Positions 12,101 to 64,000 of a stretch of 64,000 nt of DNA are shown here, one piece after another (positions within the stretch are counted from its first letter, which is position 1; every line of letters begins with the position of its first letter). Origin of the DNA: Arenicola marina (taxonomy: Eukaryota; Annelida; Polychaeta; Arenicolidae); assembly GCA_964019135.1 (NCBI GenBank), contig OZ025258.1:35498126-35562125 (forward strand). Reading direction: 5' to 3'. The position numbers and the translations under genes are program-made. The notes beneath the pieces are model-generated. The model ran no database searches. It was not told where the DNA came from and saw only the letters and a program-made list of their open reading frames with translations.

Positions 12101-15100
12101 GCACCACTAGCTACGGGCCAATTGCCCTGTCGGTCAATTAATTACCTTGCAATCTGACACCGTAATTAACACAATATATGTGTCATGTTCATATTGCTTA
12201 TCTTGATTGTTCGCCGTGATACCAGCTAAAGAATAGCACCTGATATCCTATGAACGCGACCAGTATAACTTTTAGCTGTGACTTTCAAGGCGGAGGAACC
12301 AGGGAAGGTCACACCCCACGTGCTGCGTTCGTCACGTGGTCCTTGTATCACGTGGTTTGTTCGTCGCGTTCACGTGTTTTCATCTATATAGTATTTCACT
12401 TTCGACCTCACACATCCACAATGTGTTTGTTCGCCTACGGAGTCATCTAATACATCTACCGATTGAGGCTGAGGCCAGTCAAGACAGCACCACATTTCGT
12501 CTCAGAGATCTGGTGTGATTATCGGCGGATATGGCATAAGACGGTATTATCGCCCATGATGACGCGGAGTACTGTATTTCTGTAATCAAACAAATTGTCA
12601 CGCACCATTTCAGAGCAAGTCAACTAGTTCCAGGAATGCTGATTTGCCAGGAGTTAATTTATTTAGTTCCAAGCGTGTTCGAAGCACCATCCGCAATATA
12701 TCGCGCGACGAACATGTCACCGGGAGTGTGGTAAGGATTTAGTTCCCACCAGTGAATGAGATGTATTACAACAGCGAAGTGGGAGCCATCGCCCCGAACC
12801 CTTGGCCCTTCGGGGACAGACATGATGATAACAGCGGTGGTAGCGGGGCAGACTCCGGGGTCGACTCTCGGCTCTTCTCCCCGGGGCCAGGGGACCCAGG
12901 ATACAGCGGTGGGGAGGAGGTCCAGTCCCCACCTCGCGGGGGCACCGTGGCCATGACAACCCGAGAAATAGCGACGCGAGAGGAGCTCACCACAGGGACA
13001 AGTCGTCAAGGAGACGGCAACGCGGCTGGGGTGCCAGGTAGCCCGGTAAGGGACAGCGCGACAGGGAGGAGACCCCCCAAACCCAGCCACTCCTATATCG
13101 CGCTGATATCCATGGCCATTCTAGAGTCTCCGTCCCAGCGATTGCTGCTGGGGGATATATACAGCTTCATCGCGCGAAAATATCCGTTCTTTAACGCTCT
13201 GGAGACACGCTCGTGGAAAAACAGCGTTCGCCACAACCTCTCGCTGAACGAGTGCTTTGTGAAGTTCGGGAGGGCGGATAATGGGAAGGGACACTTCTGG
13301 GCCATCCACCCGGCTTGCCTGGACGACTTCCGGCGCGGGGACTTCCGTCGACGCCAAGCCCGCAGGCGGGCCAAGCGAAGCGGCGAACTGGCGCGATGGA
13401 GCCCCGGCCCAGAACATGCCTGGTCGCCCTCCCACGCTATCCACGGGTTGCCCCAGCAACCTTACTCAGCACCATTGCCTATACTACCAGAGGGATATCA
13501 GTCCGTATCTTCGCCATACCCATTTCCTAATCCCTACCGACCCGCGCCGCTGCCGTCGGTTCTCCACGATAATCCCCTGCCTCACTTGACGCCGCAGCCT
13601 CCCACGGCAATTGGATTGCTACCGGGGTATTGTTATCGTGGGTATCCGTCACCCAGCATCTACGGCGGACTGGTAAACCCGACATCGCAATCAGTTCTCC
13701 ATCGATCGGAGGGGCTCGACCCTCACGACGCCCAGGTAACACCCCGCACATCCCCTGGAGCCAATGCTTGTCATCACCTCGCGATGTATCCACACTATTC
13801 AGCTCCCCAAGGAGGAGCGCCATCTACTGAGAACTGCTCGAAGCTGGATAATGCTGGCGACACATGGCACTGGTCGGCTGCTCATTTGGTTCCTTCTGTT
13901 GCCGGATATACTCTATTGGACAGTTAGTTTCAGTGTGATATTCCTTCCACGTAAGCTATTGCATCTGTGTAGACACCTAATCCATTCAAGTTATTTGTGC
14001 AACATTTATACAAATTACATCTCTACCCCAATAAATAAAAAATAAAAACATTTTCATCTTTTACAGCGTTTCATTATTGAAGTATTTGAAATAAGACCGT
14101 CGGTTCTTGGTCTATTGAAAATGAGAATGATCAGAGTTAACCAGTCATCAAAATCCCTCCCGATGAGCCCCCACCACGCTGTCAGTGCCCTCCCCTCCAA
14201 CCGATCTCCACCCGCTCTCATGGACGGCGCAGTATTTCAAGCGTTGCAATAGCCCCATTTTCAATGTCTTCTTAATATTATTTTGGTCTTCGAAAATTAT
14301 CAAGATGGCGTCATCGCATGGCAACAATTGTGTGGCCAATAAAGCATTCGATATGTTGCCATCTATGTAAATGAAAATCTTCTGCATTTGAATGACCTGG
14401 AAATGTTGTAGTTACCACCTTCGGCAAACTTAATTTCACTAATTGGGAAACACCTAATGTACAATGCAAATGGTTTGGTGATAAACCATCTGTAAATATA
14501 ACCCTTGGTTTTCTTTGTTATCTTTATGCCTGATTACTCTAACAGTACATGAGATGGATGCGACAGGCAAACCATGCCATGTCATGATCATTCGGGAGTG
14601 CTCTGTGTTATCTGCATTTCATCATCGACCGCCGATCTATACAGCAACATTACCGAAACTCAACACTGTCCTACCATACAAGCTCTATGAATAAAAAAAC
14701 ACGGATAAATATAGAATCAACATAGGCCGTAAGTAGTAGTGCACAAAACGAACGAGGGACACATGAGCCTAGAAAAAGACTAGGTACTGCTGGTTTCTTG
14801 GACTTTATAACGGGGAGCCGTGGATATTAAGTGGAGCGCACTCCACCCCAGCAGCTTGCCATTAGCGCCAATTAACGCTACCGGCGGAACCCACTTTATA
14901 TACGCTATGGAGAGGCCGATAATGAATAATAATAATGAATAACTAATAATTAACTTACCCGTGGCCTTGCGTATCAAGGGCAGAAAGGCCTTGGTCACCC
15001 GGACCAGGCCCAGTTGGTTGACGGCCACCAGCCGCTCGTACTGTGCCATCGTGGTCAGCTCGGCGTCACAGAGCGTGTTGATGGCAGCATTATTAACCAG

Positions 15101-23100: not shown

Positions 23101-23372
23101 GACGTCTTTTTTTGGACGTCTTGATGACGTGTTAAAAAAGACATCTAAAAGACCTCTTCAGTAAAACGTCGAAGAGACGTGTCGAAAAAGACGTCTAAAA
23201 GACGTCTTCAGTACAACGTCGAAGACACGTGTCGAAAAAGACGTCTAAAAGACGTCTTCAGTAAAACGTCGAAGAGACGTCTCGAAAAGACATCTTCAGT
23301 AAGACGTCGAAGAGATGTGTTCGGTAAGATGTCTTCAGGACGTAGTCACAGAGACGTCTTCAAGGCATTACA
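23101..23372. repeat. GACGTC-rich tandem array, copy 1
   Basis: Degenerate units of about 48 bp built around AAAAGACGTCTTCAGTA and AACGTCGAAGAGACGT. The region is dense in GACGTC palindromes. A frame rich in Lys/Arg/Ser through the array (23179-23406) simply follows from the repeat. Confidence 0.85.
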
Positions 23373-23714
23373 TACAAGTAAATACTTTTCAAGTTGCGCA
23401 AATTGAAATTCATGTGAGGAATTGGTGAAGAGCCCAGAGACAGACCTAAGGGGGGGCGGGGGGGATAGGAGGGTTGCTTGGGAACTTGAGCATACACAGT
23501 AATTGTAAAAGTTGGGTTCTCTGACTAAATACATAGCAAAGATAAAGTTTGTGGCCCAGTGGAGTATCCAAGGGGCGGGGGGGGGGGGGGGTGGGCGGGT
23601 GAACGCTTTTGGCTGGCAAAAAAACCCCGGCTAATATCCTGGCCCCTGGAGCCCTTGCATTCAATTCAATACAAGTAAAACAAAGAAATACATTCAGGAT
23701 ATAATAGGATAATA

Positions 23715-23826
23715 TATGGTATTTTACCATGGTTACCATGGTGTTTTGGCGAAGGTATTTTACCATTGTAATATTTTATGGAATACCATGGTAAATTACC
23801 ATCGCCAAAACACCATGGTATAATGG
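23715..23826. repeat. CCATGG palindromic hairpin, copy 1
   Basis: Inverted arms around ACCATGGTGTTTTGGCGA and its complement, with a short AT-rich centre. The same structure recurs at about 30751-30860, and CCATGG words recur in the array at 35560-36425. Confidence 0.75.
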
Positions 23827-23836
23827 GTTCTAGGAA

Positions 23837-24225
23837 AACTCCCCCCCGACAATTCCCCCCTGCGACAAGTCCCTCCCGGACAACTCCCCCCCGGACAATT
23901 CCCCCCCCCGGACAATTCCCCCCTAGGACAAGTCCCCCCTGGACAACTCCCACCCGGACAATTCCCCTCGGGACAACTCCCCCCCCCCCGGACCATTCCC
24001 CCCCGGACAATTCACCCCCGGTCAGTCCCCCCCCCTCCCCTAGATAATTCCCCTCCGGACAACTCCTCCCAGACAATTCCCCCTAGGACAATTCCCCCCA
24101 GGACAACTTCCCCCGGGACAACTCTCCCCATACAAGTCCCCCCCGGACAATTCTTCCCCGTACAATTCCCCCCTAGGACAATTCCCCCAGACACCTCCCC
24201 ACCCCCCCCCCCCCCCCCGAGACAA
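23837..24225. repeat. C-rich minisatellite, unit GGACAATTCCCCCC, copy 1
   Basis: About 25 units of 13-16 bp with core GGACAATTCCCCCC or GGACAAGTCCCCCC. The other strand is G-rich with runs of five to seven G every 14 bp, so it could form G-quadruplexes. The same unit in the opposite orientation forms the array at 34823-35165. Confidence 0.95.
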
Positions 24226-24376
24226 TATCTCGGACACTGTCACCCACATCATCCCAAACGGAGACGCCGTCCCTCCTCCCGCCAATCCCCACCGGTCAAA
24301 CCCCAACTCAGGACCACAAACACTGTATGTCGTGCGTGTGAAGGAGCTTGGCGCTGTCTGTTCTGTAACACCCGTT

Positions 24377-25828
24377 AGGTTGCATTGTGGATGTGCAGGT
24401 TTCATTAAGACGAAAATTTTCAACTTTCGTCTTATGTCGGTGTGTTCGGTTAGTCTGTGTGATTGTCTGTCTGTTTGTAACGCGGGGCATTATCTTTCGA
24501 ATGCCTAAAGATATCGACTTCCAAATTCACAGAAAGATGCGGAATGACTATCGACAGGCTAAGTTCGTAGATGGGCCATGCAGGTCAAAGGTCAAGGTCA
24601 CAGGAATTTTTCGAAATTCGCTTAACCATTGAAATATAGGACCAAAAATCGGCAAAATCGCAATAGCGTGCCCAATTTTGAAAATCGTCCGAATAGTTCT
24701 TCTGCAAAAAAATCCCAAAGTTTAACATGGGATCCTACGGCAGCATTTTGGCGGGAAAATGGTCTCACTTTCTCTGTGAAGAGTACAAGTGAGACAAACG
24801 CCACCTGGCCTGATACATGACATCAGTAATTGGACACGAATAACTATATTGGTCAAGGTCACGCTTCCAAGGTCAATGTCACAGCAAGGTGAAGGTCACA
24901 TGTGTTCCCGCGTAACTCCGTTAATATTGGGTCTAGATGTTCGCTGTTAGTTTGAGATTATTCCTCGTGGAGAGGCGAAAACGTCGTATTGGCTCAGATT
25001 TCTNNNNNNNNNNNNNNNNNNNNNNNNNNNNNNNNNNNNNNNNNNNNNNNNNNNNNNNNNNNNNNNNNNNNNNNNNNNNNNNNNNNNNNNNNNNNNNNNN
25101 NNNNNNNNNNNNNNNNNNNNNNNNNNNNNNNNNNNNNNNNNNNNNNNNNNNNNNNNNNNNNNNNNNNNNNNNNNNNNNNNNNNNNNNNNNNNNNNNNNNN
25201 NNNAGGTTGCATTGTGGATGTGCAGGTTTCATTAAGACGAAAATTTTCAACTTTCGTCTTATGTCGGTGTGTTCGGTTAGTCTGTGTTGATTGTCTGTCT
25301 GTTTGTAACGCGGGGCATTATCTTTCGAATGCCTAAAGATATCGACTTCCAAATTCACAGAAAGATGCGGAATGACTATCGACAGGCTAAGTTCGTAGAT
25401 GGGCCATGCAGGTCAAAGGTCAAGGTCACAGGAATTTTCGAAATTCGCTTAACCATTGAAATATAGGACCAAAAATCGGCAAAATCGCAATAGCGTGCCC
25501 AATTTTGAAAATCGTCCGAATAGTTCTTCTGCAAAAAAATCCCAAAGTTTAACATGGATCCTACGGCAGCATTTTGGCGGGAAAATGGTCTCACTTTCTC
25601 TGTGAAGAGTACAAGTGAGACAAACGCCACCTGCCTGATACATGACATCAGTAATTGGACACGAATAACTATATTGGTCAAGGTCACGCTTCCAAGGTCA
25701 ATGTCACAGCAAGGTGAAGGTCACATGTGTTCCCGCGTAACTCCGTTAATATTGGGTCTAGATGTTCGCTGTTAGTTTGAGATTATTCCTCGTGGAGAGG
25801 CGAAAACGTCGTATTGGCTCAGATTTCT
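24377..25828. repeat. AGGTCA-rich dispersed repeat (family D), duplicated across an N gap
   Basis: 24377-25003 and 25204-25828 are near-identical 625-627 bp repeats separated by 200 N. Each carries several nuclear-receptor half-sites, including GGTCAAAGGTCAAGGTCACA, TTGGTCAAGGTCACG and TTCCAAGGTCAATG. The second copy of the large duplication has this segment once (31416-32042), so the doubling may be an assembly artefact. A diverged relative in reverse orientation lies at about 56470-57000. Confidence 0.8.
25004..25203. other. Assembly gap (200 N)
   Basis: A run of exactly 200 N, flanked by direct repeats of about 626 bp. Confidence 1.
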
Positions 25829-30260: not shown

Positions 30261-30532
30261 GACGTCTTTTTTTGGACGTCTTGATGACGTGTTAAAAAAG
30301 ACATCTAAAAGACGTCTTCAGTAAAACGTCGAAGAGACGTGTCGAAAAAGACGTCTAAAAGACGTCTTCAGTACAACGTCGAAGACACGTGTCGAAAAAG
30401 ACGTCTAAAAGACGTCTTCAGTAAAACGTCGAAGAGACGTCTCGAAAAGACATCTTCAGAAAGACGTCGAAGAGATGTGTTCGGTAAGATGTCTTCAGGA
30501 CGTAGTCACAGAGACGTCTTCAAGGCATTACA
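30261..30532. repeat. GACGTC-rich tandem array, copy 2
   Basis: The counterpart of 23101-23372 with few differences. Confidence 0.85.
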
Positions 30533-30871
30533 TACAAGTAAATACTTTTCAAGTTGCGCAAATTGAAATTCATGTGAGGAATTGGTGAAGAGCCCAGAGA
30601 CAGACCTAAGGGGGGGCGGGGGGGATCGCGGGGGGGGAACGCTTTTGGCTGGCAAAAAAACCCCGGCTAATATCCTGGCCCCTGGAGCCCTTGCATTCAA
30701 TTCAATACAAGTAAAACAAAGAAATACATTCAGGATATAATAGGATAATATATGGTATTTTACCATGGTTACCATGGTGTTTTGGCGAAGGTATTTTACC
30801 ATTGTAATATTTTATGGAATACCATGGTAAATTACCATCGCCAAAACACCATGGTATAATGGGTTCTAGGA

Positions 30872-31258
30872 AAACTCCCCCCCGACAATTCCCCCCTGCG
30901 ACAAGTCCCTCCCGGACAACTCCCCCCCGGACAATTCCCCCCCCCCGGACAATTCCCCCCTAGGACAAGTCCCCCCTGGACAACTCCCACCCGGACAATT
31001 CCCCTCGGGACAACTCCCCCCCCCCCCCCCGGACCATTCCCCCCCGGACAATTCACCCCCGGTCAGTCCCCCCCCCCCCTCCCCTAGATAATTCCCCTCC
31101 GGACAACTCCTCCCAGACAATTCCCCCTAGGACAATTCCCCCCAGGACAACTTCCCCCGGGACAACTCTCCCCATACAAGTCCCCCCCGGACAATTCTTC
31201 CCCGTACAATTCCCCCCTAGGACAATTCCCCCAGACACCTCCCCACCCCCCCCCCCCG
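30872..31258. repeat. C-rich minisatellite, copy 2
   Basis: The counterpart of 23837-24225, differing mainly in lengths of C runs. Confidence 0.95.
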
Positions 31259-31415
31259 AGACAATATCTCGGACACTGTCACCCACATCATCCCAAACGG
31301 AGACGCCGTCCCTCCTCCCGCCAATCCCCACCGGTCAAACCCCAACTCAGGACCACAAACACTGTATGTCGTGCGTGTGAAGGAGCTTGGCGCTGTCTGT
31401 TCTGTAACACCCGTT

Positions 31416-32042
31416 AGGTTGCATTGTGGATGTGCAGGTTTCATTAAGACGAAAATTTTCAACTTTCGTCTTATGTCGGTGTGTTCGGTTAGTCTGTGTG
31501 ATTGTCTGTCTGTTTGTAACGCGGGGCATTATCTTTCGAATGCCTAAAGATATCGACTTCCAAATTCACAGAAAGATGCGGAATGACTATCGACAGGCTA
31601 AGTTCGTAGATGGGCCATGCAGGTCAAAGGTCAAGGTCACAGGAATTTTTCGAAATTCGCTTAACCATTGAAATATAGGACCAAAAATCGGCAAAATCGC
31701 AATAGCGTGCCCAATTTTGAAAATCGTCCGAATAGTTCTTCTGCAAAAAAATCCCAAAGTTTAACATGGGATCCTACGGCAGCATTTTGGCGGGAAAATG
31801 GTCTCACTTTCTCTGTGAAGAGTACAAGTGAGACAAACGCCACCTGGCCTGATACATGACATCAGTAATTGGGCACGAATAACTATATTGGTCAAGGTCA
31901 CGCTTCCAAGGTCAATGTCACAGCAAGGTGAAGGTCACATGTGTTCCCGCGTAACTCCGTTAATATTGGGTCTAGATGTTCGCTGTTAGTTTGAGATTAT
32001 TCCTCGTGGAGAGGCGAAAACGTCGTATTGGCTCAGATTTCT
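31416..32042. repeat. AGGTCA-rich dispersed repeat (family D), copy 2
   Basis: Single copy here, against two around the gap in the first duplicate. It has the same TCAAGGTCA-type sites. Confidence 0.8.
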
Positions 32043-34822
32043 ACGGATGCTGAAAGATTTTCGAGTAATCGGCCAATCAATATTCAGCGTTAGTGTCAAG
32101 AGGCGTTTTGAACTTTGCAAGGCCATAACTCTGTTATTATTTGAGCTAGGGAGCCCAGATTTGGCCTGAATGGAGAGAAACATGTGAGCTAGGTTGATCA
32201 AAACAGTCTCAGAATTGCTCTAGGGCGCTTAGTTTGGCCGCTAGAGCGCTCGCAAGAGGTGCACCCCCCTCCATGCCGACGCTTCTATTATGAGTCAACG
32301 GCGATATGGACCGGCACTCTTTCGGGGTTGCGATGGCCGCCGTTCGCTTAATAGCGACGCTACAGAGTCGGGATCGGTTGCAAAAGACGGGCAAACGTCG
32401 ACTTGGGTGTGGAAACCGCCTTCGTTTTTTGCCTATCACGCTTAGTTCCGCCCCTAGGGGGCTCCGTAATTCAGCGATGACGAGTCCAAGAACAGCGATT
32501 AGGGCGTGACCAAGGACGCGTAGAAAGTCGTGATTTAAAGGTATTCACTCTAAACGACGCCCTCGACCTGGAAAAATAGCCCGCGTTCAACAGCCGCCGT
32601 TAGATGGCGCTCGTCCAGTACATCACGATACTTGGGGTCCATTTTGGGCTCATTTGCGCTTTCAGCCAGCAATTTGGCCTCAGTACTACAGCTTTCAGTG
32701 GGCGATATGGTCTCGAACGCCAGGCTGAACAACCAATTAGCGAGCGGCGATGGGTCTTGACATAGACGAATTGGTCCCATAACCACAATTTTCGTCTGCC
32801 TTCTCAAGCTCTGCTTGACCGTCTAGTATTATATTTCCATGTACACTGAGAAGTTCTGTCTCAACAAGCCCACAATAAGACTTTTAAATTTGGAACTACA
32901 TCAATCGCGCAGACGTATTAGAGAGACCCTGCGGCTATGAAGGGGTGGGCCGGGGGGTGTACGTCTATGTTATCGCGGTCACACAAACCCTCTTATAGGA
33001 CAGATTTGCGGGTGAAGTTAAGTTTGTCGGGTTTTTTTCAGGCTCCCAGAGTTTTCGATTATCAATACTGAAAAAGTTGTGACCATTCAAAGCCGACGTG
33101 CGAGTTAATATCAAATATATCTGCATAATTCATATTCCTGTGCCGGTATGGGTATTTTGGATACTTAGGCCTGTTTGGTGGGGAAGGCGTCGGGGGTTTC
33201 CAGGGTCGAGCAGTCCTCGATTGTCTGGGGGGGCATTGTCCGGGGGTGGCGTGGGGGAGGGGGGGTTGTCTTGCTCCTGTTGTCCGGAGAGAAAAGATTT
33301 GCCGGGGAGGAGGACACCCCCCCCCCCCCCCAGACGATACCACCTCCACCCCCCACCTACGACACTTCTTCCCGGCTCGTTCACCCCGACACCCCCGTCC
33401 TCCCTTCGGACAATTGTTTGCCCCCCGACAATTTCCCCACAGGAAAATTCGGACTGCTTTGAATGTGCGTTAACTCGCATGTCGGGTTTGAGTGGTCATA
33501 ACTTGCTGGGTATTGATACTCGAGACCTCCGAGCGCCTGTAAAAACGGACAAAATGAAATTCGCACGCAAATCTGTCCTTGCTAAGACCAATTATGGTGT
33601 ATAATATACACCATCCTTGCTAAAACGCATTGTGTTTGGCGCGATAGCGCTTCGAAGAGATGCATGCACCCCTCCGCCCCCCCCCCAACCCCCACCTCAC
33701 CCCACCCCACACCGCCCCACACCACAATGGGCAGTGGACGTCACAGCAGGCGCGTGCTCCTTTATGCTAGAGGCCTTGGGGGGCACTACCTTTATGATGG
33801 TGCGGGTATGCCGCCCATACGATAGTGGTCATATGAGAGCCAGAGAATATAAAATACGCCATTTTGTTGTCATCGCGAGAGAAATGTTTGGATAAGAAGG
33901 CATCCAACTAGACACCGGCATTCTTTTCTTTTTTTGACGATAGAGATAATGGGTACATACGACATCGAGGGAAAATGCAGGTTTCTGCTCCGGGGAAAGA
34001 AGAAGAGGTGAAAAAAGGACGGGTGTTACTTGTGTGATACGTATTTGTTTATCTAGCTATACATAGTGCCCCCCCCCCCCGCCTCGGCAGTCGCTTAGTC
34101 GTCAAGACGAAAGTAACTTTTGTTGATCAAATGCACTTTAGGTACTTTAGTAAGTAAATGTGTTACATAGAAAAAAAGTTTGGTTTGGACGGAAGTAAAT
34201 TTGGTTCACCATATGACTTTTTGTCACAACGTCGGCAGAAGCAATATAATTTTTTAGATGGGTGTTACCTCACTCATGAGTTAGTTAACTCTTGTCGTCC
34301 CATGGCTGCGCACATGGCGTGCCAAGGTGGAAGAAAATACATATTTTCACATGCACCACTCGCATCCCATTGGCGGGGAAGGGGGGGGGGGCACTAGATG
34401 TATTTAGGTATATACATATGTGTCGCCCAAATGACCCTTTTTGCGCCATTTTTCTCTCAATCCCCGGAGCAGAAATCTGGAATTTCTCCCGATGTGCCCA
34501 TCTGAGACTGAAGTATTTTTTTTAATTGCAGCTATATTGACTATATATTCCAGTTCATGTCGAAAGTGTTCAAATAATTAACCACCATAAACTTTGCCAT
34601 GACTGCCAGTGTCTATCTCTCCCGGATGTCCTCCCGAAGTATTCCTACGTGTCGGAAAGAGAAGGGGGTGGGGGCTTGTCCGTTTGTGGGTGTGTGTTTC
34701 CAGGGGGTGGTTATCGTCCAGGGGGTGGTTATCGTCCAGGGGGGTATTGTCCGGGGGCAACTTGCCGGGGGGGACTGGCCCAAGGGGAACATTTTCCAGG
34801 TGGGGGATTATAGTAGGGGGGG

Positions 34823-35165
34823 GGTTGTCCGGGGGGGAACTGACTGGGGGGAATTGTCTGGGGGGAAGTTGTCTCATAGGGGGGAGTTGTCCGGGGGAAA
34901 GTTGTCCTAGGGGGGAATTGTCCGGGGGGAAGTTGTCCGGGGGGGACTTGTCCGCGGGGGACTTGTCGGGGGGGAGTTGTCCGGGGGGACTTGTCCTAGG
35001 GGGGAATTGTCCGGGCGGGGGGAATTGTCCGGGGGGGAGTTGTCCGGGGGTGAATTGTCCTAGGGGGGAATTGTCCGGGGGGGAATTGTCGGGGGGGAGT
35101 TGTCCGGGGGGGAATTATCTGGGGGGGGGGGGACTGACCGGGGGTGAATTTTCCGGGGATGAGTT
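34823..35165. repeat. G-rich minisatellite, unit GGGGGGAATTGTCC
   Basis: About 23 units of 13-16 bp in the orientation opposite to the C-rich arrays at 23837 and 30872. It marks the right end of the tandem duplication. Runs of five to eight G at about 14-bp spacing make it quadruplex-prone. Confidence 0.95.
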
Positions 35166-35169
35166 GTCC

Positions 35170-35485
35170 TGCTCCCCTGGCACACTGCTCACTTCGCGCG
35201 CTGTGGCACGCTGCAAATCTCACCGGTGTTTTATGTTTTAACGTTGCTGTCTCGAAGGGGTGGGGGGGGGGGGGGAGGGGGTCTGCGGTAAAGCCACCCC
35301 TACTTGACCGCCAAACTACGCTTGTAAGGGGCGTTTTCCCGAAAATCGGCTCGCACGTTTAAACGCGAAAATATCCGCTCGGAAGGGAATTTTTTTTTCC
35401 TTGGACCGAGCCCGCTCGGTTTATTATTTTTCCCGGGAAACTCGCTCTACAAACGCCCATTTTCAGTCCCCGCCCCCCCCCCCCC
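35170..35485. repeat. Dispersed repeat family B relative, antisense
   Basis: From a poly-G tract (about 35262-35280) onward, words such as GCGGTAAAG, CTTGTAAGGGGCGTTTT and the following block resemble the reverse complement of 39700-39815. A poly-C tract (35469-35488) closes it. Confidence 0.4.
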
Positions 35486-42205: not shown

Positions 42206-42980
42206 GCGCTCCAACTTGTTTGGGGAGGATGTGCGAGGTTGTTTGGGCCGGATAGCTGCCTCCTCTTGCGTACATCTATCTGTTGGGCGAAAAGAAATAA
42301 CATTATATAATGGAACGTAAATTTAATTTACAAGACAAATGATGCAGGGTGTTTATTTGCAGTTTCTGGAGCAGATTTGGCGCATCAGCAAGTGTGGGCA
42401 CAACAGTCCACACAAGTTTATCCCTATGAATCAAAATATTGAAGTTTAATCATGAATAAAAAGCTTTATTCATACATAATAAAAATAATCTTAAGAATAC
42501 TGCGGTAGCTGATGTTTAGCGCTGTTTCCGCTTAACTGTAAAATAGGGTACTGCGGTAACTGATGTATAGCTCTGTTTCCGTATGTAGTCCGCTTAACTG
42601 TAAAGTTGGACACTGTGGTAATTGGTGTCTACCTTCGGTTATTCCTCTGTAAACCTCTATTTCAGTGTATCTCACGTGTTACTCACGCCTACCACTTACC
42701 ACAAGAATCCACTTCGTGGGGCCTAACATGGAAGATGGACCATGAGTGGATACAAACAATAGACCACTGCCAATGCAATGTTAAATGTTAGATTTACGCG
42801 AGTTAATAAACGAACGGCTTTCCACCATGAAACGGTCTCATTTGCTCTGTCGTCGATAAAGAAACAACCCGATATATGGCATAGAGAGAGAAAGGACTCG
42901 AGAATCCTGGTCAGAAATTAGGATTGAAGTCCAACACACCCAGCCCAAACAAACCAGGTGACGACTCCCAACCAGTCGTG
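42206..42980. other. P450 upstream region, nothing certain
   Basis: No promoter element is convincing. Sequence from about 42935 (GCCCAAACAAACCAGGTGAC) onward is conserved in the broken exon copy at 57195-57590, so the duplicated unit included 5' UTR. Confidence 0.4.
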
Positions 42981-45900
42981 ATGTTCGCCATTTTCTGGGA
43001 CAATCTCATGCAGACATGTATCGTCTTTGTCGTCGTCTTTCTGCTGAGTTATAACTACGTGTCGCGGGAGCCATGGCGACACCTGCCCCCAGGACCCTGG
43101 AGATTCCCCCTCATCGGCTCCCTTGCATTTCTGGGCGCCGACATGCGGAAACCTTTTCGGCGCATGGCCAAGAAATACGGAGATGTCTTTACGGTGTACT
43201 TGGGAGTACGCCGGTGTATCATTCTTAACGGACATGACGTCATAAAGGAAGCCTTGGTGAAACATAGCCACGCGTTTTCAGGGCGTCCGTCGGTATTCTT
43301 CATTGAAGATTTAACACGTGGATTGGGTCAGTATGATGCCATCTGTAACCATAATCGTTTCTTCTTTTTGTTGGATAATTGTCATTTTTATCACATACTA
43401 AAAAAAGTTTTTAAATCGGTGTCAGTTTCAATAATTATTAACTGAAACCGATATGTTATTACGAACATTTCGGGTTATACCATTACCCAATTATATAATA
43501 ATGATAAGATTTCACTTTCAATTAATTATTAACTAGGAGGGGCGGATCTAGGAGTTTGGCAGGAGGGGCGGATCTAGGAGTTTGGCAGGATGGCTGGGTT
43601 CACCGAAAATTTGCGTTACCAGGAGGGGGTGTGGGGGGTTGAAAATGACGGGACAGAACGTTTCTTTCTCCGAAAGGTCATTGAAAATATTTCAGCTTCA
43701 ACGACTTTACCGGTTCTTTTCAACACACACCATTTATTACTATCCTACCGGGGGAGTATTTTGCCTATTTTTTAACGAAAGGTAGGGAGGCAAACTGTGC
43801 CCCCCTGGATCCGCCACTGATAGTGCAATTGTTTGCTGCGGTCAACAGGCATGGGGTTGTGCTGAATATTTCTCCTTGACGACCTCCGATGTAAACATAA
43901 TCGATGATGTATCAAGTTGGTATATATATATGCTGTGAAACTTGAATAAGTTAAAGAAGAGTAATGTCCATGTGAATGCGATCGATGATGGTGACAGCAA
44001 TTCACCAAGGACTTCAAGAGAGGTATCATAACCACGCACCATTACAAGTGGTGTTGTCAACGATGGAATGGCTGGACGCACAGTGTGACCAGGATTGTGT
44101 CATTATTCATTAGGTGTGGTGTCTACCCAGGGCGAGTTTTGGAAGAAGCAGCGTCGTTTCGCGCACACCGTCCTCAAAGATTTTGGCTTCGGGCGAAGTT
44201 TGATGGAGGCTAAGATCGGAGAGGAGGTGGCTGCCTTCCTGACCGTCCTGGATCGTACAGCCGGACAACCGTTGGACTTCTACAACCGTGTCCAAATGGC
44301 CGTCGCCAACATCATCGGCTCCGTCTCTTTTGGCGATCGCTTCGACTACGAGGATCCCAAGTTCAAAAATTACTTGAAAATGATGGTCGACGGCTTCGAT
44401 ATCGTCGGCAATTCAGGGTTTCTCAATGTATTTCCTTACCTGCGATTTCTTCCGGGGGATTTGTTTAAGTATAAAATGTGTATGGAGACTACGGAGTTTA
44501 TGAAGTCGGAGTTTCGGGAGATGATCCAGAAGCACAAAGATGCCGGGATCTGGGGCGACGAGCCGACTGACTTCGTAGATGCTTTCCTGAGAGCCATGGA
44601 GGAGCAGGAGGGGGATCCGGACTCGACCTTCTCAGGTGGGTGGCCTACCCGGCCAGGGAGATGGGGGTGTCTGGTGTAGAGGTTAGTGCACTTGGTGTAG
44701 TGGTTAGCGCACTAGACTGCTGATCTGGGGTGGTCTGGGTTGAGTTGCGGAGCACGATCGACCGCCGCGAACAATTTGTTGCAGGCATATCCACTAAATA
44801 ATTAACCATAATTTGGAAATAACAGCACACTCAACGATATGCAACGATATTTACAGGTTATCCCTACGTATTTTAGAAGAATCGTCGTCCAGATTTGAAT
44901 ATTATAATGCGGGACTACTCTCGCTGAGACGTTCGATCGCGGTCCGTGCTCCGCAACTCAACCCAGGTGTAGTGGTTAGGGCACTAGACCGCTGATCTGG
45001 GGTGGTTAGCGCACTATACCGCTGATATGGCGTGGTCTGGTGTAGTGGTTAGTGTACTAGACCGCTGATATGGGGTGGTTAGCCGCCTAGACCGCTGATA
45101 TGGGGTGGTCTGGTGGTTAGCGCACTAGACCGTAGATCAATAGGTCATGGGAGCCTCGCTGGCGTAGTGGTTTACGCAATAGGCCACAGCTTTATTACCT
45201 GGGTTCGAATCCAGGACTTAGCAACATGTGCATCGACTGCATAATATGTGGCACTTGATTGGCTATATGAGGAATATCGCATACTCATTCTGACTCCTCT
45301 CGTGTTATTGGACGCATTCGGCTCCAACATACGCTCCTACCAATACTATTATAACCCACTTTGACACTATTATGTGGCCTATCTCACTGTGGCAGTGGAC
45401 CAGCTGGTAGCTGTTGTGAGCGATCTGTTCGGCGCCGGCACAGAGACCACCACCACCACCCTTACCTGGATGGCCATCTACCTCCTCCATCACCCAGACG
45501 TCCAGGAGAAGATCTGCCAGGAAATCGATGACGTCATCGGCTCGCAGCGTGCCCCGTCCATGTCGGATAAATCCAAGATGGCGTACACGGAGGCAACTCT
45601 CTGCGAGCTGCAGCGTCTCGCGGATACCGTGCCCTTCAGCGTCCCACATGGGACGTCAGAGGACGTCTGGTTCCGTGGCTACTTCATCCCCAAGGGCAGC
45701 TATATTCTGCCCAACTTGAACAGCGCTCACAGGGATCCTGACTTGTGGCCACAGCCAGAGAAGTTCGACCCGACTCGCTTCCTGGACGAAGACGGCAAGT
45801 TCAAAAAGCAGGAGCAACTGATTCCGTTTTCTGTCGGTAAGTATATAACATTAGTTTTTTCATTTGATGGCACATTTTGTGTCTATGGTGATTTGCCTTT

Positions 45901-46262
45901 AAGCCATCAATCGCATATTGCAGGACACACTCACATTTAACTATTCCCACAAGAGCTTCTCGTGTGATTGTGGTAGTTTTAGATGCGGCATGAATAAATC
46001 TAGCGCGTGTGGTTTGAGATTATTGGATTTAATTACACCGTGTCGACCTGTAACGTTACACATGTTGTGTGTCCTTGTTTCAGGCCCACGGGTGTGTCTG
46101 GGCGAGGGTCTGGCTCGGATGGAGCTCTTCCTCTTCGTCACCTCCATCTTACAGAGGTTCACCCTCACCCTCCCCCCGGGCCACCCACTCCCCAACCTCA
46201 CCGGACGTCTGGGTATCACCAACATCGCCCCCAAGTTCAAGGTCATTTTGCAACACCGCTGA
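42981..46262 (+). CDS. Cytochrome P450, CYP2-type (clan 2), complete
   Basis: Four exons with GT-AG borders and one frame: 42981-43326, 44114-44635, 45396-45836 and 46084-46262 (TGA), 495 residues, the usual microsomal P450 length. Residues 11-25 form the ER membrane anchor, followed by the hinge PPGPW (36-40). The oxygen-binding helix has AGTETT (303-308), then the ExxR pair Glu360/Arg363 in CELQR and the FDPTRF block. The haem loop [11 protein letters not shown] has Cys441 as thiolate ligand and is split by the last intron. All catalytic signatures are present, so it should be an active haem monooxygenase using NADPH-P450 reductase. The substrate cannot be told. The start is the ATG directly before the membrane anchor; upstream sequence in frame has no earlier ATG. 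A broken copy of exon 1 lies 14 kb downstream on the other strand. Confidence 0.93.
43535..43820. mobile_element. Small hAT-like non-autonomous transposon in P450 intron 1
   Basis: The left end GGGGCGGATCTAGG (duplicated at about 43538 and 43565) pairs with CCCCCCTGGATCCGCCACTG at about 43801-43820. Ends of the form CAGTGGCGGATCCAGG are typical of hAT-type miniature elements. A similar unpaired end occurs at about 51070. Target-site duplication was not resolved. Confidence 0.55.
44665..45230. repeat. tRNA-like repeat cluster in P450 intron 2
   Basis: At least five direct copies of a GTAGTGGTTAGCGCACTAGA-type unit, which resembles a tRNA A box, with GACCGCTGATCTGGGGTGGT between them. A segment with TTGAGTTGCGGAGCACG (about 44740) recurs inverted near 44945. 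The last unit (about 45150-45225) has both TGGCGTAGTGG and GGGTTCGAATCC with a pairing T arm, but no matching acceptor or anticodon stem. I read the cluster as tRNA-derived SINE heads rather than tRNA genes. Confidence 0.5.
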
Positions 46263-57194: not shown

Positions 57195-57542
57195 CCAATC
57201 CAAGTGTTATGTCGTTTATGAAAAACACCGACGGACGCCATAAAAAAGGCGTGGCCACTTTTTCACCAAGGCTTCCTTTATGGCGTCATATCCATTAATA
57301 ACGATACACCTGCGCACTCCCAAGTACACCGTGAAGACGTCTCCGTATTTCTTGGCCATGTGCAGAAGAGGTTTCCGCATGTCGGCGCCCAGAAATGGAA
57401 GGGAGCCGATGAGGGGGAAGCTCCAGGGTCCTGGGGGCAGGTGTCGCCATGGCTCCCGTGACACGTAGTTATAACTCAGCAGGAAGACGACGACAGAGAC
57501 GATACATGTCTGCAGGAGATTGTCCCAGAGAATGGCGAACAT
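57195..57542 (-). pseudogene. Broken copy of CYP2 exon 1
   Basis: Closely matches exon 1 of the P450 at 42981-43326, from the ATG (57542) through the membrane anchor, [17 protein letters not shown] and KEALVK. Beyond that the frame shifts, the equivalent exon being net 2 bp longer, and meets a stop, so the C-terminal part of the exon is lost. The donor GTCAGT is retained. Similarity extends upstream into the 5' UTR and about 20 bp into the intron, so this was a DNA-level duplication, not a retrocopy. No exons 2-4 are found nearby. Confidence 0.88.
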
Positions 57543-57599
57543 CACGACTGGTTGTGAGTCGTCACCTGGCTTGTTTGGGCTTAGTCCATCCACACCAGA

Positions 57600-58350
57600 C
57601 TCCGTGTAGCTCACACAATAAATGTGTGTGTGCTCATTTTCATTTGGTTTTGCACAATTTTTATACCAGCAACCTGAACAAACGCGACCACTACGTTCAC
57701 TACATGTTGGCCGATGCGAGTGCATGAGGCGGGAGTGCAATAAATGGAACAGCCTGCAATGTACACGGAGCAGTTACAACGAATGAGATTAAAACTGTTT
57801 ATATTACGGCTAATATTTATTTTAACACGATTAAATTTTAATCTTCTCCTGAGAGTCTAACAGGCGGACCTAATAATTAACATGCTAATAATTATAGGAG
57901 TACTATTGTCAAAGCAACGCATAAAGAAATCAATATTAAAGAACTTTATGATATGAGTTTACCATATACATAAAGTGCGTATTCGCATCGATCTATCCAG
58001 AAAGCCGACTTTGACAACTCGAATAACATATTGTTATATCCATACATTTATGAAAGCCGTCATCAAGCCCATCGCATCGACAAGACAGAAGCCCTAGTGA
58101 CAGATTCATGTCAATTTCCCAAGAGGGGTGATGGGGAGAGGGGTGAGGGAGGAGGGGGGGTGGGTGCAGGCAAAGCGTCGCTTTGTGGTTCAAAAGAGGC
58201 CTCGACCTCTATGGACTCTATCCACCAGGGCAAGTTTGGTACTCAGGTGTCTTTTAGCTTTCAAGCTACAACCGAGGACTTGACATTTGCAATGGTCAAG
58301 GTCACGACCTTGACCTTTGACCTAGGTAGCTTAAAGACAGTTTTGAGATA
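57600..58350. other. Intergenic; inverted AGGTCA pair near 58290-58325
   Basis: ATGGTCAAGGTCACGACCTT followed by GACCTTTGACCTAGG gives facing nuclear-receptor half-sites. A poly-G stretch lies near 58140-58160. No gene is recognised. Confidence 0.4.
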
Positions 58351-58520
58351 TTACCTTGCATAACCTTTGTAATTCAACAGGAGACACGTAGCTTATAGGT
58401 TTCTGTATTTTTGTTGGCACATTGTTAATTGTGAAATGTCCTATCTTTCACCATTAGACCATTTTTGTGTTGCCATGGAAACAAAAAGTAACCATTCGAT
58501 TGCATTTATCTTGCACCTAA

Positions 58521-58528
58521 TATATAAG
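58521..58528 (+). promoter_or_regulatory. TATA box
   Basis: TATATAAG about 45-50 bp upstream of the ATG of the small frame at 58572 and about 520 bp upstream of the SAP-SWIM-YqaJ start. Position suits a promoter of the transposon-like module. Confidence 0.45.
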
Positions 58529-58571
58529 GCCGACCCCTAGGAAGCCTGCACTGATTGTAATTGCACCAAAC

Positions 58572-58913
58572 ATGGATAAAAGTGAAATTTGTATCTTTCA
58601 TCATGGGATTTTCCGTTGCCTTGGAAACGAATACTGCGAATTCGATCGCCGTATTGTTTTATGGCTCAAATGGACGTCTGATAACGCATGCCTGGTGCAT
58701 GGGGGTCGTCTCGCTGCACATTATAAATCAAACCGGTACCATCTGGGCCGATTATTAAGGGAATTACAGCGTTTCGTAGCCTCCCATCCTGGTGCAACCG
58801 CTGTCACCTCGACCTCAGGTGGGGCCTGTGAGAGTGGGGCCGGGGGGAGGGGGCTCTCGGTTCACGGTAAGGACACCAAGCAGCAAGCAGCTGAACTGCA
58901 GCCAACCGGCTAG
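58572..58913 (+). CDS. Small 113-residue open frame upstream of the SAP-SWIM-YqaJ gene, function unknown
   Basis: It starts at a good AAACATGG context just behind a TATA box. The first 75 residues are of mixed composition with several Cys and His (EICIFHHGIF, NEYCEFDRRIV, HGGRLAAHYK, LLRELQRFVASHP). The last 38 are Gly/Ser/Ala-rich and look less protein-like. I do not recognise a family. It could be a separate small protein of the transposon, a leader exon spliced at a GT after about 58818, or chance. The next gene starts 134 bp after its stop. Confidence 0.35.
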   Translation: MDKSEICIFHHGIFRCLGNEYCEFDRRIVLWLKWTSDNACLVHGGRLAAHYKSNRYHLGRLLRELQRFVASHPGATAVTSTSGGACESGAGGRGLSVHGKDTKQQAAELQPTG

Positions 58914-59046
58914 CAATACACAGGGTAGAGGTGTTAATGGGGCGGTTTCGTTCAGCGTAGTTTCGCCCAACTCGCTAAGTGGCGCAAGTGTAACATTGGT
59001 TATAAACACGATCAGCGGCTCGAGCAGCCGTCTCCGACCGTGAAAC

Positions 59047-62000
59047 ATGGATCGGTCCAATTTAACACGCTCTTGGACTGTTTTGCAACTTAAAGAAGAA
59101 TTGAGCAGAAGAGGGGCGTCCACAAGGGGCAGGAAAACAGATCTGATTGAACGGTAAGTATCGACATTGAGGGTTTCCCCTCAAAAATATTTGAAAATAG
59201 TGTATTATCGCTCATATTGCAATTCAGCCCATTACCATGGTACCAGGCCTACCATGGCATTGGCCGCATTGCCTTAGGCAAACTAATAACTTAGTTATAC
59301 CGTAATTAGCTTGTTTTAGTTATACCGTAATGAATGTTTTTTTAATAATGAGATATACGAACTTAGTCTAGTTTATTTTGCTAAGAGGAATTTTAGAAAT
59401 GATGTTTTACACTGGGCACAGATTTGGCATGATCTTAAAACTGAAAGCGGGGGGGGGTGGTTACTAAATAATTGTGTCCAGGGAGAGGGACTATTTGGAA
59501 TGGAAGTACCACCGGGACAGGGGCCCTTTGCAATACACGTATATGGGAAATCCGGGAATAAACAGGGAGGGGAGGGGGGGAGGGGGGGTCTACCACTATA
59601 CAATTTTTTTTCCATTTTTTAGCATGTGTGCATCCTTCTGACAAAACCAAGTGCATGGTCAACATAGAAAAGGTAATACACAAAAAAATATGAAGGCTGT
59701 GAAATGTATAGATGTTTGTGAATAATCAAGGCATTAAATTCTTATGTGAAGTCTACATATCTTTTTTTACATATATATATGTAAATAAATTCCTCCATGT
59801 CTTGTAAATAAATATCAAATGTATAACAAATATCTATATATAGTGTCTGCTACTTATATCGCATATATTGCATTGGAAATAAATGACAATGTTAATATGC
59901 AGTATTTGAACTGAAATGAATAGACACAGCATTAAACTGTAAGGTTGAACTGTCACATTGCTGTGTGACATAGAATACAAATTTAAGATGTAATTGTTTT
60001 ATTCTGCTGCATATATGTGGGTTACATATTTTGAAATTGAGAAAAAGTACTTAAATGTATTTCACTGTCAATTGTTTTCAGCTTGGAAGCTTATGAGAGA
60101 AATAAGAATTTTTCAAATGAAGCTCCAGCAGCTTTATTGGACCCAACCATCCCCGGGTGGCCAGAGTCTGGCTTCCGTCAGATAGTTCCCAGCCTTAGGG
60201 AGAAACTCCCCAAAATTGAAATGGAACATGTGACAGCTTATTTTGGACATCAACAGGTAACCTAGAAATTACCAATGTGCCTTTACAGAAGATTTAATTA
60301 ATAGTACTGCTGCAATTGGCGGGTCCAAAGGGACTGTTTATTATTATAATGACCCGTCATGTTTTGAAGGGGGGAGGATTTAGGTTTATGAGATGATCTA
60401 TCAAGTTAACTGAACTTCGCAATATGATCTAGTGTTTCATTTGTTCCCAACTTTGCATTTAACTAATTATGGTTTGGTGCACAAATGTATAATTTCCACT
60501 TAATACTTTGATAGGCAGCTGATCGATTATCATCTGCTAATCTGAAAGCCATCGAGAAGGGTAAAGCATTGGTGGAAGGCGACAGGGTAGCAGCATGCAG
60601 TATGGCAGAAAGAAATAAAGATGTTTATTTCTCTGGATTTGTCAAAGCTGCTATGAAAAAAAAGGTCAGTTTAAATATCTTAACTCCTAATTGATTTAAA
60701 GAAAAGATGTTGCGTGTATGTCAATATATATGCTCTATCTGCTTTGTTAAAAGGAGAAAGAAATTTTATCAGTGCATGAGAGATTAAGATCTAAACACAA
60801 TAAATGTTGTTTGGCTTTGCAGGTGTCTTACAACTACAAACTGAAAGTCAACAAAAATCATGGCTACGTGGAAAATAGTCATTGTGAGTGCCCTGCTGGG
60901 AGAGGACCACGGGGAACTTGTAAACATGTAGCAGCGGTTCTCATGGTACTCTCCGCATTCACCACGACGGGCAAACTAGCTGTGAGCCTGACGTGCACTG
61001 ACCGTCTGCAGTCGTTTCACCGGCCAGCCAAATTACATAGTGGTAAGTAATAACATCAACAATTGTGTCCGTTCGAATATTTTTTCCATAGCAAGTACAA
61101 GTTTGACATAAGTAAATTTATTAATCCAATGTACAATGAAATCAATTTGACACATATACAGTACAATTTCACAATTACAATAGCCCGTTTTGGCAAGTAG
61201 GCCTCTAGCGCCCGAAACTGTATTATAAATATTGTTAAGACTTAACACTATATTTCAGGATCTCCCATTAAGTCAGAGGATCTCGTCATGCGAGTTGGCC
61301 AGCAGGACGAGATGCTAGAGGACCCACGGCCTCTCCGTTTCCGGAATTGTCCCGGTTACCAGGATTGCGTAAGGCGGGAGGTTATTGCGTACGTCTGTAG
61401 TATTGGGGAGGATGTAACAGCACGATACGCATACGAAAGGGCCGACTTGCAAGCGGCAGACCTTGACCACAACTACATGAAGGTCCCATTCCTGGAGACC
61501 TGGATCGACAGGGCGAACGAGGTGTCGGCGGCCCAGGCTCAAGCTATTGAACGCAAGACGAGGGGGCAAAGTCAAAACCCTAAATGGCATGCTGAACGTT
61601 CGTGGCGCATAACAACCTCAAATTTTGGAACAATTGCTAAGTCAACGGACCGCCGAAACCGTGAGAAACAATGTCAATCACTAACTGATCAAAGCTTGAT
61701 TGTTTCTCTGGCCATAAATCACGGCAAACATTACGAACCAATAGCTTTGCGGAGCTTTAAGACGGAGAGAAACCTTAAGGTCCGGAGCTGTGGGCTGTTT
61801 GTCCGTGAAGATTTCTCCTTTTTGGGTGCTTCTCCTGATGGAGTTATTGACGCCGATACCATTGTGGAGATTAAGTGTCCATACACTGGACGTCATGAAC
61901 CAATTGTACCTGGACCAAAGTTTAAATTTTTGCTGAGCATCAATGACTGTCTGGCTTTGAAACGACACCACATCTACTATGACCAAATTCAAGGTCAGTT

Positions 62001-62166
62001 GTTTGTGAGCAAAGCTAAATTATGTTACCTTGTCGTGTACACTCTTTTCGACATGAGAATCGTAGAGGTCAGATACGATGAGGAGTATTGCAGGGACAGC
62101 CTACTGCCTAAACTTCAGGCGTTCTACACGAAATTCTTCAGACCATATCTAGCCAAATTGATGTAA
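59047..62166 (+). CDS. SAP-SWIM-YqaJ nuclease of an ISL2EU-like DNA transposon, intact
   Basis: Five exons with GT-AG borders join in one frame: 59047-59153, 60082-60256, 60515-60664, 60823-61042 and 61259-62166 (TAA), 519 residues. Residues 4-38 form a SAP DNA-binding motif (LQLKEELSRRGAS...RKTDLIER). A SWIM zinc finger has Cys165, Cys167, Cys177 and His179 (CECP...CKH). Residues of roughly 310-500 form a YqaJ/lambda-exonuclease fold with GASPDG (Asp411) and EIKCPY (Glu421, Lys423), the expected metal-binding residues. An in-frame TGA lies directly before the ATG, fixing the N terminus. It ends 206 bp from a THAP/DDE transposase on the other strand. From memory, ISL2EU-type eukaryotic transposons carry such a transposase plus a YqaJ protein. 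A host-domesticated gene is the alternative. No break is visible, in contrast with the transposase. Confidence 0.88.
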
Positions 62167-62372
62167 ACTGAGACTGTATAGATACAATCTTGCGTATACA
62201 AATATTTGTGCATAAAGTTGCATGGTATATAAACATTAGATTCTTTCAAATCCACTCTCCGCTCGCTCGCTCCGGTATCGGAGGACGTTATATGCGGCTT
62301 TATATATCACTGAAGGATGTTCATATAAGTGATGCAGTGATATTTAAAAATTGCAAATAGTTTCTGCCATAA

Positions 62373-63544
62373 TTATGCATTCTTGCTAACAATACAAGTC
62401 TTTAAATTGCTCAGAAGGAAACATACAGTGATAATCCTGTTACCCAACGGAACCCTCGTCACTGGTAGGGATCTTGTGAGAATCTTGAATGTTTTTGCCA
62501 GACCTATTACACGTTCAACATGTATGCGCTTTTCGCCTGTCGCGTACAACCTCAGATTGAGTTAGTTGGCTTTTTCCCTTTAAAAATGTTGGCATATTAA
62601 TTTTTACATCTTTTGTAGCGAACAGGTCCTGAACATTAAATCATCTACCGGTCATTATGCTATCCCCTTCTTCAAACATTGTTTGGTCCTTGAGCAACTC
62701 TGATCGCTCGCAAATTTGTCTGTTGCTGACACTGCCTGCATAGGCTGAACTAACAAATGAGACAACCCCTTTTTTGTTTTTATAAGTCGAAAATGTTGCA
62801 CTTTGTGCAGCAACTCGCCCTGGCTTTTGTATAGGAATTTCAGTAGCATCAATAATAATCCTGGTTGAAGGCAACTGTTTTTAAAGTGTTTTGGCATTGT
62901 GTCATTTACCACTTTTCTAGATGGTGTAAAATTTGCTTCTTTCAGCTGATAATACATAAAGTTTATCCAGGTTCTAAATACACGCGACACAGTGCCTTTG
63001 CTTAGTTCAAATAATAAAGCCAGTTCATAATCATCCTTGGCTTGTCTTAATTTAATGAGGGCCAAAAAGAGTTGGTCTTGTGGGGGGAGGTTGCATTGCG
63101 GTACAGCAAGATGATGAACACACTCTCCCAAGATTCGAAAAAGAAGCATAAAGTGCTCAATTAAATTAAATCCTGTGTAATACTTAATGGCATTTGGATC
63201 TTCACAAAATGACTCTATGGAAAACATAATTTTCTTTGTGGGTACTAGCAAATCGCATGACAAACACTTATCTTCGAACTGCTTCACATCAGATGAAGGT
63301 ACAATTTCAACGGCAGATGGCTCTGACTCAGTCATACAACCATCTTGTGTAACTTCAACTTCAGCACCAACATCTTGAATGGTTGATTCATGTGGTTTCT
63401 TTAGGGATGTGTTGTCATCAGCAGCTCTCACTTGCTTAGTTTTGCGCTTTTGGTGGCGTTTCTCACGTGGGCTTGCTTCAGTAGAGCTCATGGTAAATGC
63501 AAACACTGATGGGGTGGCAGCTTTTTTTAAACTTTTCCTCTCAC
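62373..63544 (-). pseudogene. DDE_4-type transposase (ISL2EU-like), main exon, broken
   Basis: On the minus strand, sequence from 63544 (behind a TTCCTAAACAG-type acceptor) encodes a basic linker. A helix-turn-helix region follows (QDQLFLALIKLRQAKDDYEL, SKGTVSRVFRTW). Then come IIIDATEIPIQKP with the first catalytic Asp, SNRQICERSELL, and finally RIHVERVIGLAKTF with the catalytic Glu, ending at 62375-62373. The frame is broken at least three times: near 62875, near 62645 where the second catalytic Asp block is destroyed, and near 62525. The enzyme is dead. Its end faces the SAP-SWIM-YqaJ gene tail to tail, so both belong to one element whose right terminus lies beyond the window. Confidence 0.82.
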
Positions 63545-63775
63545 CTGTTTAGGAATATAATTACACACAAAATAAATTTAGATACATGTATATATAAATC
63601 CTAGATTTTATTTAATTAAGTTATGTTCACTAAATTTGCAGTCTCAAAAATGGAATGATCTAAGCTTACTAGGTGAAATACTGGTCTGTAACTTATATAT
63701 ATCCCTAGTCAACTGACAAGAAACTTGCATTAAACCTATGTACAAGTAAGGTTAAGTGCTGTTTATTACTGTTTA
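63545..63775. other. Interval between THAP exon and main transposase exon
   Basis: AT-rich sequence of about 230 bp, presumably an intron of the transposase gene on the minus strand. The acceptor at its left end is clear, the donor is not. Confidence 0.4.
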
Positions 63776-63988
63776 GCACATGCCTAGAATTGTTTCTTTA
63801 TAGTCTGTTGGCACAAAGTGGTCACTGCATACTGTAGTATATACAGATGTTGGTTGCCATAGCCTTTTTGTTTGTGGATGAACCCGTCGAATAGCTACAA
63901 TCCATTGTTTCCTTAACTTGGGATCAGATGGAAAACGATGTCCCCCATTGGCATTCTTGTATTTCGGCACACAACAATATTGTGGCAT
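63776..63988 (-). pseudogene. THAP zinc-finger exon of the transposase
   Basis: Begins MPQYCCVPKYKN and continues RFPSDPKLRKQWIVAIRR, SVYTTVCSDHF, typical of a THAP DNA-binding domain (C2CH zinc finger). It is the expected N terminus of the transposase at 62373-63544. The second zinc Cys, normally in the CVPKC position, is Tyr here (codon TAC), which should disable zinc binding. The exon runs to a stop at about 63776 without a clear donor, so how it joins the next exon is unresolved. Confidence 0.75.
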
Positions 63989-64000
63989 CTTGTCAACCTG

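Follow-up and report, generated by a model that had tools for sequence, protein, structure and literature searches.

We analyzed a 64,000-nucleotide stretch of the lugworm Arenicola marina genome (assembly GCA_964019135.1, contig OZ025258.1, positions 35,498,126 to 35,562,125 of the forward strand; hereafter, the window), the right-hand end of which carries a nuclease gene with SAP, SWIM and YqaJ domains next to a THAP/DDE transposase gene. With a probability of about 0.88, the two genes belong to one complete ISL2EU transposon (PHIS superfamily) of a low-copy family, a copy that has lost its autonomy and whose nuclease is unbroken by chance. An earlier inspection of the letters alone, the sequence-only reading, had placed the pair at 58500..64000 and asked whether an unbroken nuclease beside a dead transposase reflects chance decay or selection. 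That interval overlaps the element, but its ends were off: reading the contig on beyond the window, we found the complete element at 58939-64625 (5687 bp), running on 625 bp past the window end.

A complete ISL2EU element inserted in a dispersed repeat

The ends of the element read GGGGCGGTTTCG…CGAAACCGCCCC, and its flanks are TTAAT|GGGG on the left and CCCC|ATTAG on the right. The terminal repeats and target duplication that the sequence-only reading had proposed to look for past position 64000 were found, as perfect 12-bp inverted repeats with AT on both sides, in the local arrangement A-AT|element|AT-T (target A|AT|T). A second similar terminal stretch of 32 columns starts ~33 bp inside the element.

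The insertion lies within a dispersed repeat, other copies of which carry no insert. The empty site was crossed by at least 40 bases on both sides in 23 alignments from 21 of 25 fetched repeat loci; alignments from the remaining 4 loci span the site and stop <40 bases beyond it. In most repeat copies, the site is as long as the window copy minus the element minus one AT, the exceptions among the 23 rows being an 8-base gap in four and an insertion in one. Because the repeat copies have other letters at the site, the AT duplication is read from the flanks; AAT| also directly precedes the family's copy at C18 (C5, C7, C9, C11, C13, C14 and C18 label other places in the same genome). The features at this end of the window are:

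58657..58934, no strand: dispersed host repeat, part left of the insertion; resumes after the right AT
58937..58938, no strand: left AT of the 2-bp target-site duplication; right AT at 64626-64627, outside the window
58939..64000, no strand: in-window part of the ISL2EU element
58939..58950, plus: 5' terminal inverted repeat, perfect 12 bp, starting GGGG

According to excerpts of Han et al. 2015 (PMC4482050), ISL2EU elements have GG termini, duplicate AT at A|AT|T targets, and encode a THAP/HTH/DDE transposase along with YqaJ in a second open reading frame (ORF); their terminal inverted repeats measure 6-259 bp and usually begin with GG, and the mean autonomous length is ~4840 bp. The same two-gene content is given in part of PMC9179366. 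The window element agrees in duplication, target and GG-starting termini, has THAP, HTH and DDE on broken pieces together with a YqaJ second ORF, and is somewhat longer than that mean. It differs in its broken transposase and in a nuclease with added SAP and SWIM domains, which go unmentioned in the excerpts of PMC4482050 but are common in database homologues. PIF/Harbinger, with its 3-bp TWA duplication and Myb/SANT second ORF, is not matched: the window element has an AT duplication, and the Pfam matches of its nuclease include no Myb/SANT. The element is a further member of the known ISL2EU kind, and the tail-to-tail THAP/DDE_4 and YqaJ pair that the sequence-only reading had recognized is confirmed by duplication, termini and both genes. 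This gives one ISL2EU family precisely defined ends, a target and gene models.

A pair of this type is also present in the nemertean Tubulanus polymorphus (LOC141915295 / LOC141915296; P0010, P0136), with a nuclease 45% and a transposase 44% identical to those of the window, the transposase match spanning the whole query. Since the gene numbers are consecutive and the listed contigs equal in size, these two genes very likely form one element.

An unbroken nuclease of widespread make-up

As first read, five plus-strand exons join to an unbroken frame of 519 residues, and all 4 introns (928, 258, 158 and 216 bp) are GT...AG:

59047..59153, plus: nuclease exon 1; start codon, most of the SAP domain
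60082..60256, plus: nuclease exon 2
60515..60664, plus: nuclease exon 3
60823..61042, plus: nuclease exon 4; SWIM ligands
61259..62168, plus: nuclease exon 5 with stop codon 62166-62168; YqaJ domain with D411, E421 and K423

Two of the three domains named at the outset exceeded their Pfam cut-offs, i.e., YqaJ (residues 326-470, 4.2e-15, 56.7 bits against 22) and SAP (residues 9-42, 3.7e-10). The SWIM profile, at 15.7 bits (E 0.011), missed its cut-off of 19.6, but the ligands of the CxCxnCxH pattern, C165, C167, C177 and H179, are invariant across 33 aligned proteins. The expected metal-binding residues are all present, D411, E421 and K423 standing in PD-(D/E)xK spacing. The YqaJ domain has a fold in common with LHK-Exo and lambda exonuclease (3syy, 3sz4, 1avq, 6m9k), in a comparison that barely tested model parts outside 298-528; those chains comprise the nuclease domain alone, without SAP or SWIM. 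We take their D-x9-E-x-K spacing to be the same as in the window nuclease.

The SAP and SWIM modules had been regarded as a special addition. SAP and YqaJ occur together in 20 of 120 homologues among the matches listed, and with many database proteins sharing this make-up the modules are nothing special. Molluscs are foremost among the named homologues in those matches. The listed literature matches contained, by title and abstract, no paper on point for SAP/SWIM in ISL2EU or for YqaJ domestication; bivalve YqaJ genes are mentioned once each in the excerpts of PMC7826175 and PMC10225492.

In the family's active period, the element ends would have been cut and joined by the transposase. The SAP-SWIM-YqaJ protein may have bound to DNA and, in excision or repair, resected or trimmed DNA ends, a role suggested by its lambda exonuclease fold and to which we give roughly even odds.

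A dead transposase, probably broken only recently

The transposase lies on the minus strand and converges on the nuclease. Pfam matches cover THAP (1.7e-10), HTH_Tnp_4 (1.4e-13) and DDE_Tnp_4, the last in two pieces (2.8e-11 and 4.2e-8). Lesions were called against the copy at C9, the nearest relative, and 14 homologous proteins:

63784..63988, minus: transposase exon 1, THAP domain
63959..63961, minus: lesion, THAP zinc ligand replaced by Tyr; absent from C9
63545..63783, minus: transposase intron; GC donor, AG acceptor
62376..63544, minus: transposase exon 2, broken; HTH_Tnp_4 at ~62940-63095, DDE_Tnp_4 in two pieces
62878..62882, minus: lesion, 1-bp deletion in a T run, frameshift; absent from C9 and C11
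62769..62770, minus: lesion, ~33-bp (11-residue) deletion inside the DDE domain; C9 retains 31 bp there
62647..62649, minus: lesion, conserved Asp replaced by Gly, two residues ahead of the TGA; absent from C9
62641..62643, minus: lesion, TGA stop; absent from C9
62531..62532, minus: lesion, 8-bp deletion, frameshift; absent from C9

The sequence-only reading had counted at least three breaks and a lost zinc ligand; the damage is greater, with six lesions in all, none of them common to C9. The Asp lost at 62647-62649 is presumably the second catalytic Asp of the transposase. At the intron, the joined frame reads ...TILGERKSLKK, matching homologues there; the GC donor may belong to a working GC-AG intron or be a further lesion.

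Against C9, the ratio of non-synonymous to synonymous substitution rates (dN/dS) of the transposase was 0.95, and with C11 as outgroup 8 of 609 sites had changed on the branch of the window copy and 13 of 609 on that of C9 (the C11 alignment being partly poor). Given this ratio and so few branch changes, the transposase of the window copy resembles neutral DNA over a short time. The six lesions have gathered since the split from C9.

A low-copy family without a second whole element

We searched the transposase half, the nuclease half and the 3' end separately at the DNA level, because the flanking repeat crowded a search with the whole element (best 40 of 792). Outside the window, the transposase half recurred at C9 (92% across its main block) and C11 (80-82%), and the nuclease half at three places, C7:3148156, C18:26631098 and C7:1250056 (4/4 candidates scored in each case). 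Besides C9, the 3' end yielded terminus-only matches at C13 and C14 and 33 bases at C5 (5/5 candidates scored). The family thus has few copies: longer pieces of it lie at five other places, every one of them incomplete or broken, although a high-copy short derivative could be missed because the DNA searches skip very common words. The C9 copy carries a stop and indels of its own as well as a ~2.5-kb interruption and a gap of 254 bp, and its last 34 bp are gone; both C7 copies have stops and gaps in the nuclease; and C18:26631098 matches just the first 715 bp of the element. None of these few DNA-level matches is a whole second element. Protein-level matches outside the window copy and these relics reached at most 43% identity (best 83 of 148 candidates).

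C13:25227196-25227257 (L064) and C14:6919690-6919754 (L065) match only the last ~62-65 bp of the element, and L064 has the same final 12 bp, then ATT. The two may be non-autonomous derivatives or belong to a sister family.

These data bear on whether the window copy was already non-autonomous at insertion and was moved by a transposase from elsewhere, which we consider rather unlikely. The bare terminus at C13:25227196 means that short derivatives may have moved. However, C9 is free of the window's transposase lesions and the DNA-level search found no copies of the transposase half beyond C9 and C11, so that there is no sign that the broken form was ever copied; an intact transposase of this family did not turn up in these searches. 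The suggestion of trans-mobilized copies in the sequence-only reading is accordingly not supported for the window copy.

YqaJ and DDE_4 travel together across the genome

Next, we compared YqaJ and DDE_4 places genome-wide. There are 81 YqaJ places; on the DDE_4 side, the best 150 of 609 candidates were scored, and 46 of these 150 rows, selected by eye for their position at or close to YqaJ places, entered the count. A DDE_4 match within 4 kb accompanied 36 of the 81 YqaJ places, the window's own not among them; in every case (36/36) it lay downstream and on the opposite strand, a tail-to-tail arrangement. This number is a lower bound because 45 of the 81 are partnerless in the compared subset. 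Pairing is the rule where both are detected, and the uniform arrangement means that YqaJ and the DDE_4 transposase firmly travel together.

Within the matched stretches of the 36 pairs, 32 had no stop, two had stops in YqaJ only, one in DDE_4 only and one in both. Here, "no stop" refers to the matched frame alone and is biased in favor of intact DDE_4: even the C9 relic, broken as it is, was scored stop-free in the DDE_4 listing. A general trend of the nuclease outliving the transposase was not seen in this sample, biased as it is to intact DDE_4.

Some of the 45 YqaJ places without a DDE_4 partner in the subset, the window's among them, have long open frames. Free-standing YqaJ genes would be the better place to seek domestication.

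In the one copy read of another family (L048), a YqaJ stretch of 31% identity over the matched part converges tail to tail on THAP and HTH/DDE stretches that are open, and places with equal or near-equal scores suggest recent copies. The role of YqaJ in transposition is therefore testable in this genome, where several copies of at least one other family score equally and have both matched frames open.

Chance or selection on the nuclease

Alternatively, selection might have retained the nuclease at this locus once the transposase had died. The host would then have co-opted it, for instance to repair DNA or to counter mobile DNA, and the gene would be an incipient end-processing enzyme of the SAP-SWIM-YqaJ type owned by the host. 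We consider this improbable. Its frame, splice sites and metal ligands are intact, and gene-breaking lesions number 3-4 in 1254-1420 bp of transposase and 0 in 1557 bp of nuclease. Several counts do speak against decay by chance. At the transposase rate, 3.3-5.0 nuclease lesions would be expected where 0 were observed (P 0.007-0.037, with that rate treated as known). Of 34 residue differences from the dead copy at C7:3148156 (C7 below), 21 are derived in C7, 6 in the window copy and 7 unclear. In a comparison of 264 exon sites that used a third copy as outgroup, the window branch accounted for 6 changes and that of C7 for 12; three of the former are synonymous, and one of the remaining three may instead be common to both relics. 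The residue and exon-site counts would fit constraint, yet they include time before insertion, when the element was active.

The lesion asymmetry had a conditional p of 0.04-0.11 once the small count was allowed for, which we rejected as too weak to prove selection; it is borderline, and the locus had been chosen because of it. Chance is sufficient for a difference of this size, which makes this an ordinary find. Elsewhere in the genome, stops confined to YqaJ were not rarer than stops confined to DDE_4 (2/36 and 1/36, in the sample biased to intact DDE_4).

Decay at near-invariant columns was likewise rejected as a sign of selection, since it does not separate the two genes: the nuclease deviated at 6/107 columns (7/113 in another alignment), with 7 of 23 homologues as bad or worse, and the transposase at 10/125, with 2 of 23 as bad or worse. 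Against the dead C7 copy, divergence was 8.6% in nuclease exons and 14.1% in introns, and nuclease dN/dS was 0.49 (bootstrap 0.27-0.91, 212 codons), a value that we rejected as a test of selection after insertion because it mixes dead and partly functional branches.

Overall, the pattern looks like that of an element selected while active and then dead for a brief period, with no need for selection after insertion. The element inserted at an A|AT|T site inside the dispersed repeat; in our preferred account, the nuclease frame would have stayed unbroken by chance over the short time since. Between the two origins offered by the sequence-only reading, chance decay suffices, while selection is left with a borderline lesion count. 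The unbroken nuclease is weak evidence for selection, domestication is not supported, and nothing suggests a present host function.

We give very little credence to the idea that some of the frameshifts in the transposase were introduced during assembly and that the element is whole now or was until recently. One of the lesions, the 1-bp deletion, does lie in a T run, but homopolymer errors do not account for the 8-bp and 33-bp deletions, the TGA or the replaced residues.

Other features of the window

Rfam at gathering thresholds returned no match in the whole window. Similar blocks with the same tandem repeats lie at 23126-25400 and 30275-35200, possibly a local duplication or misassembly, and a 200-bp run of N occupies 25004-25203. 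A single frame at 12743-13927 contains a forkhead domain; its listed matches are Fox proteins of many animals, none of them close over the whole length. Finally, P450-like exons lie on the plus strand at 42885-45940, and the first of them recurs in inverted orientation close to the transposon, at 57216-57773 (minus strand); both sets presumably belong to the cytochrome P450 family.
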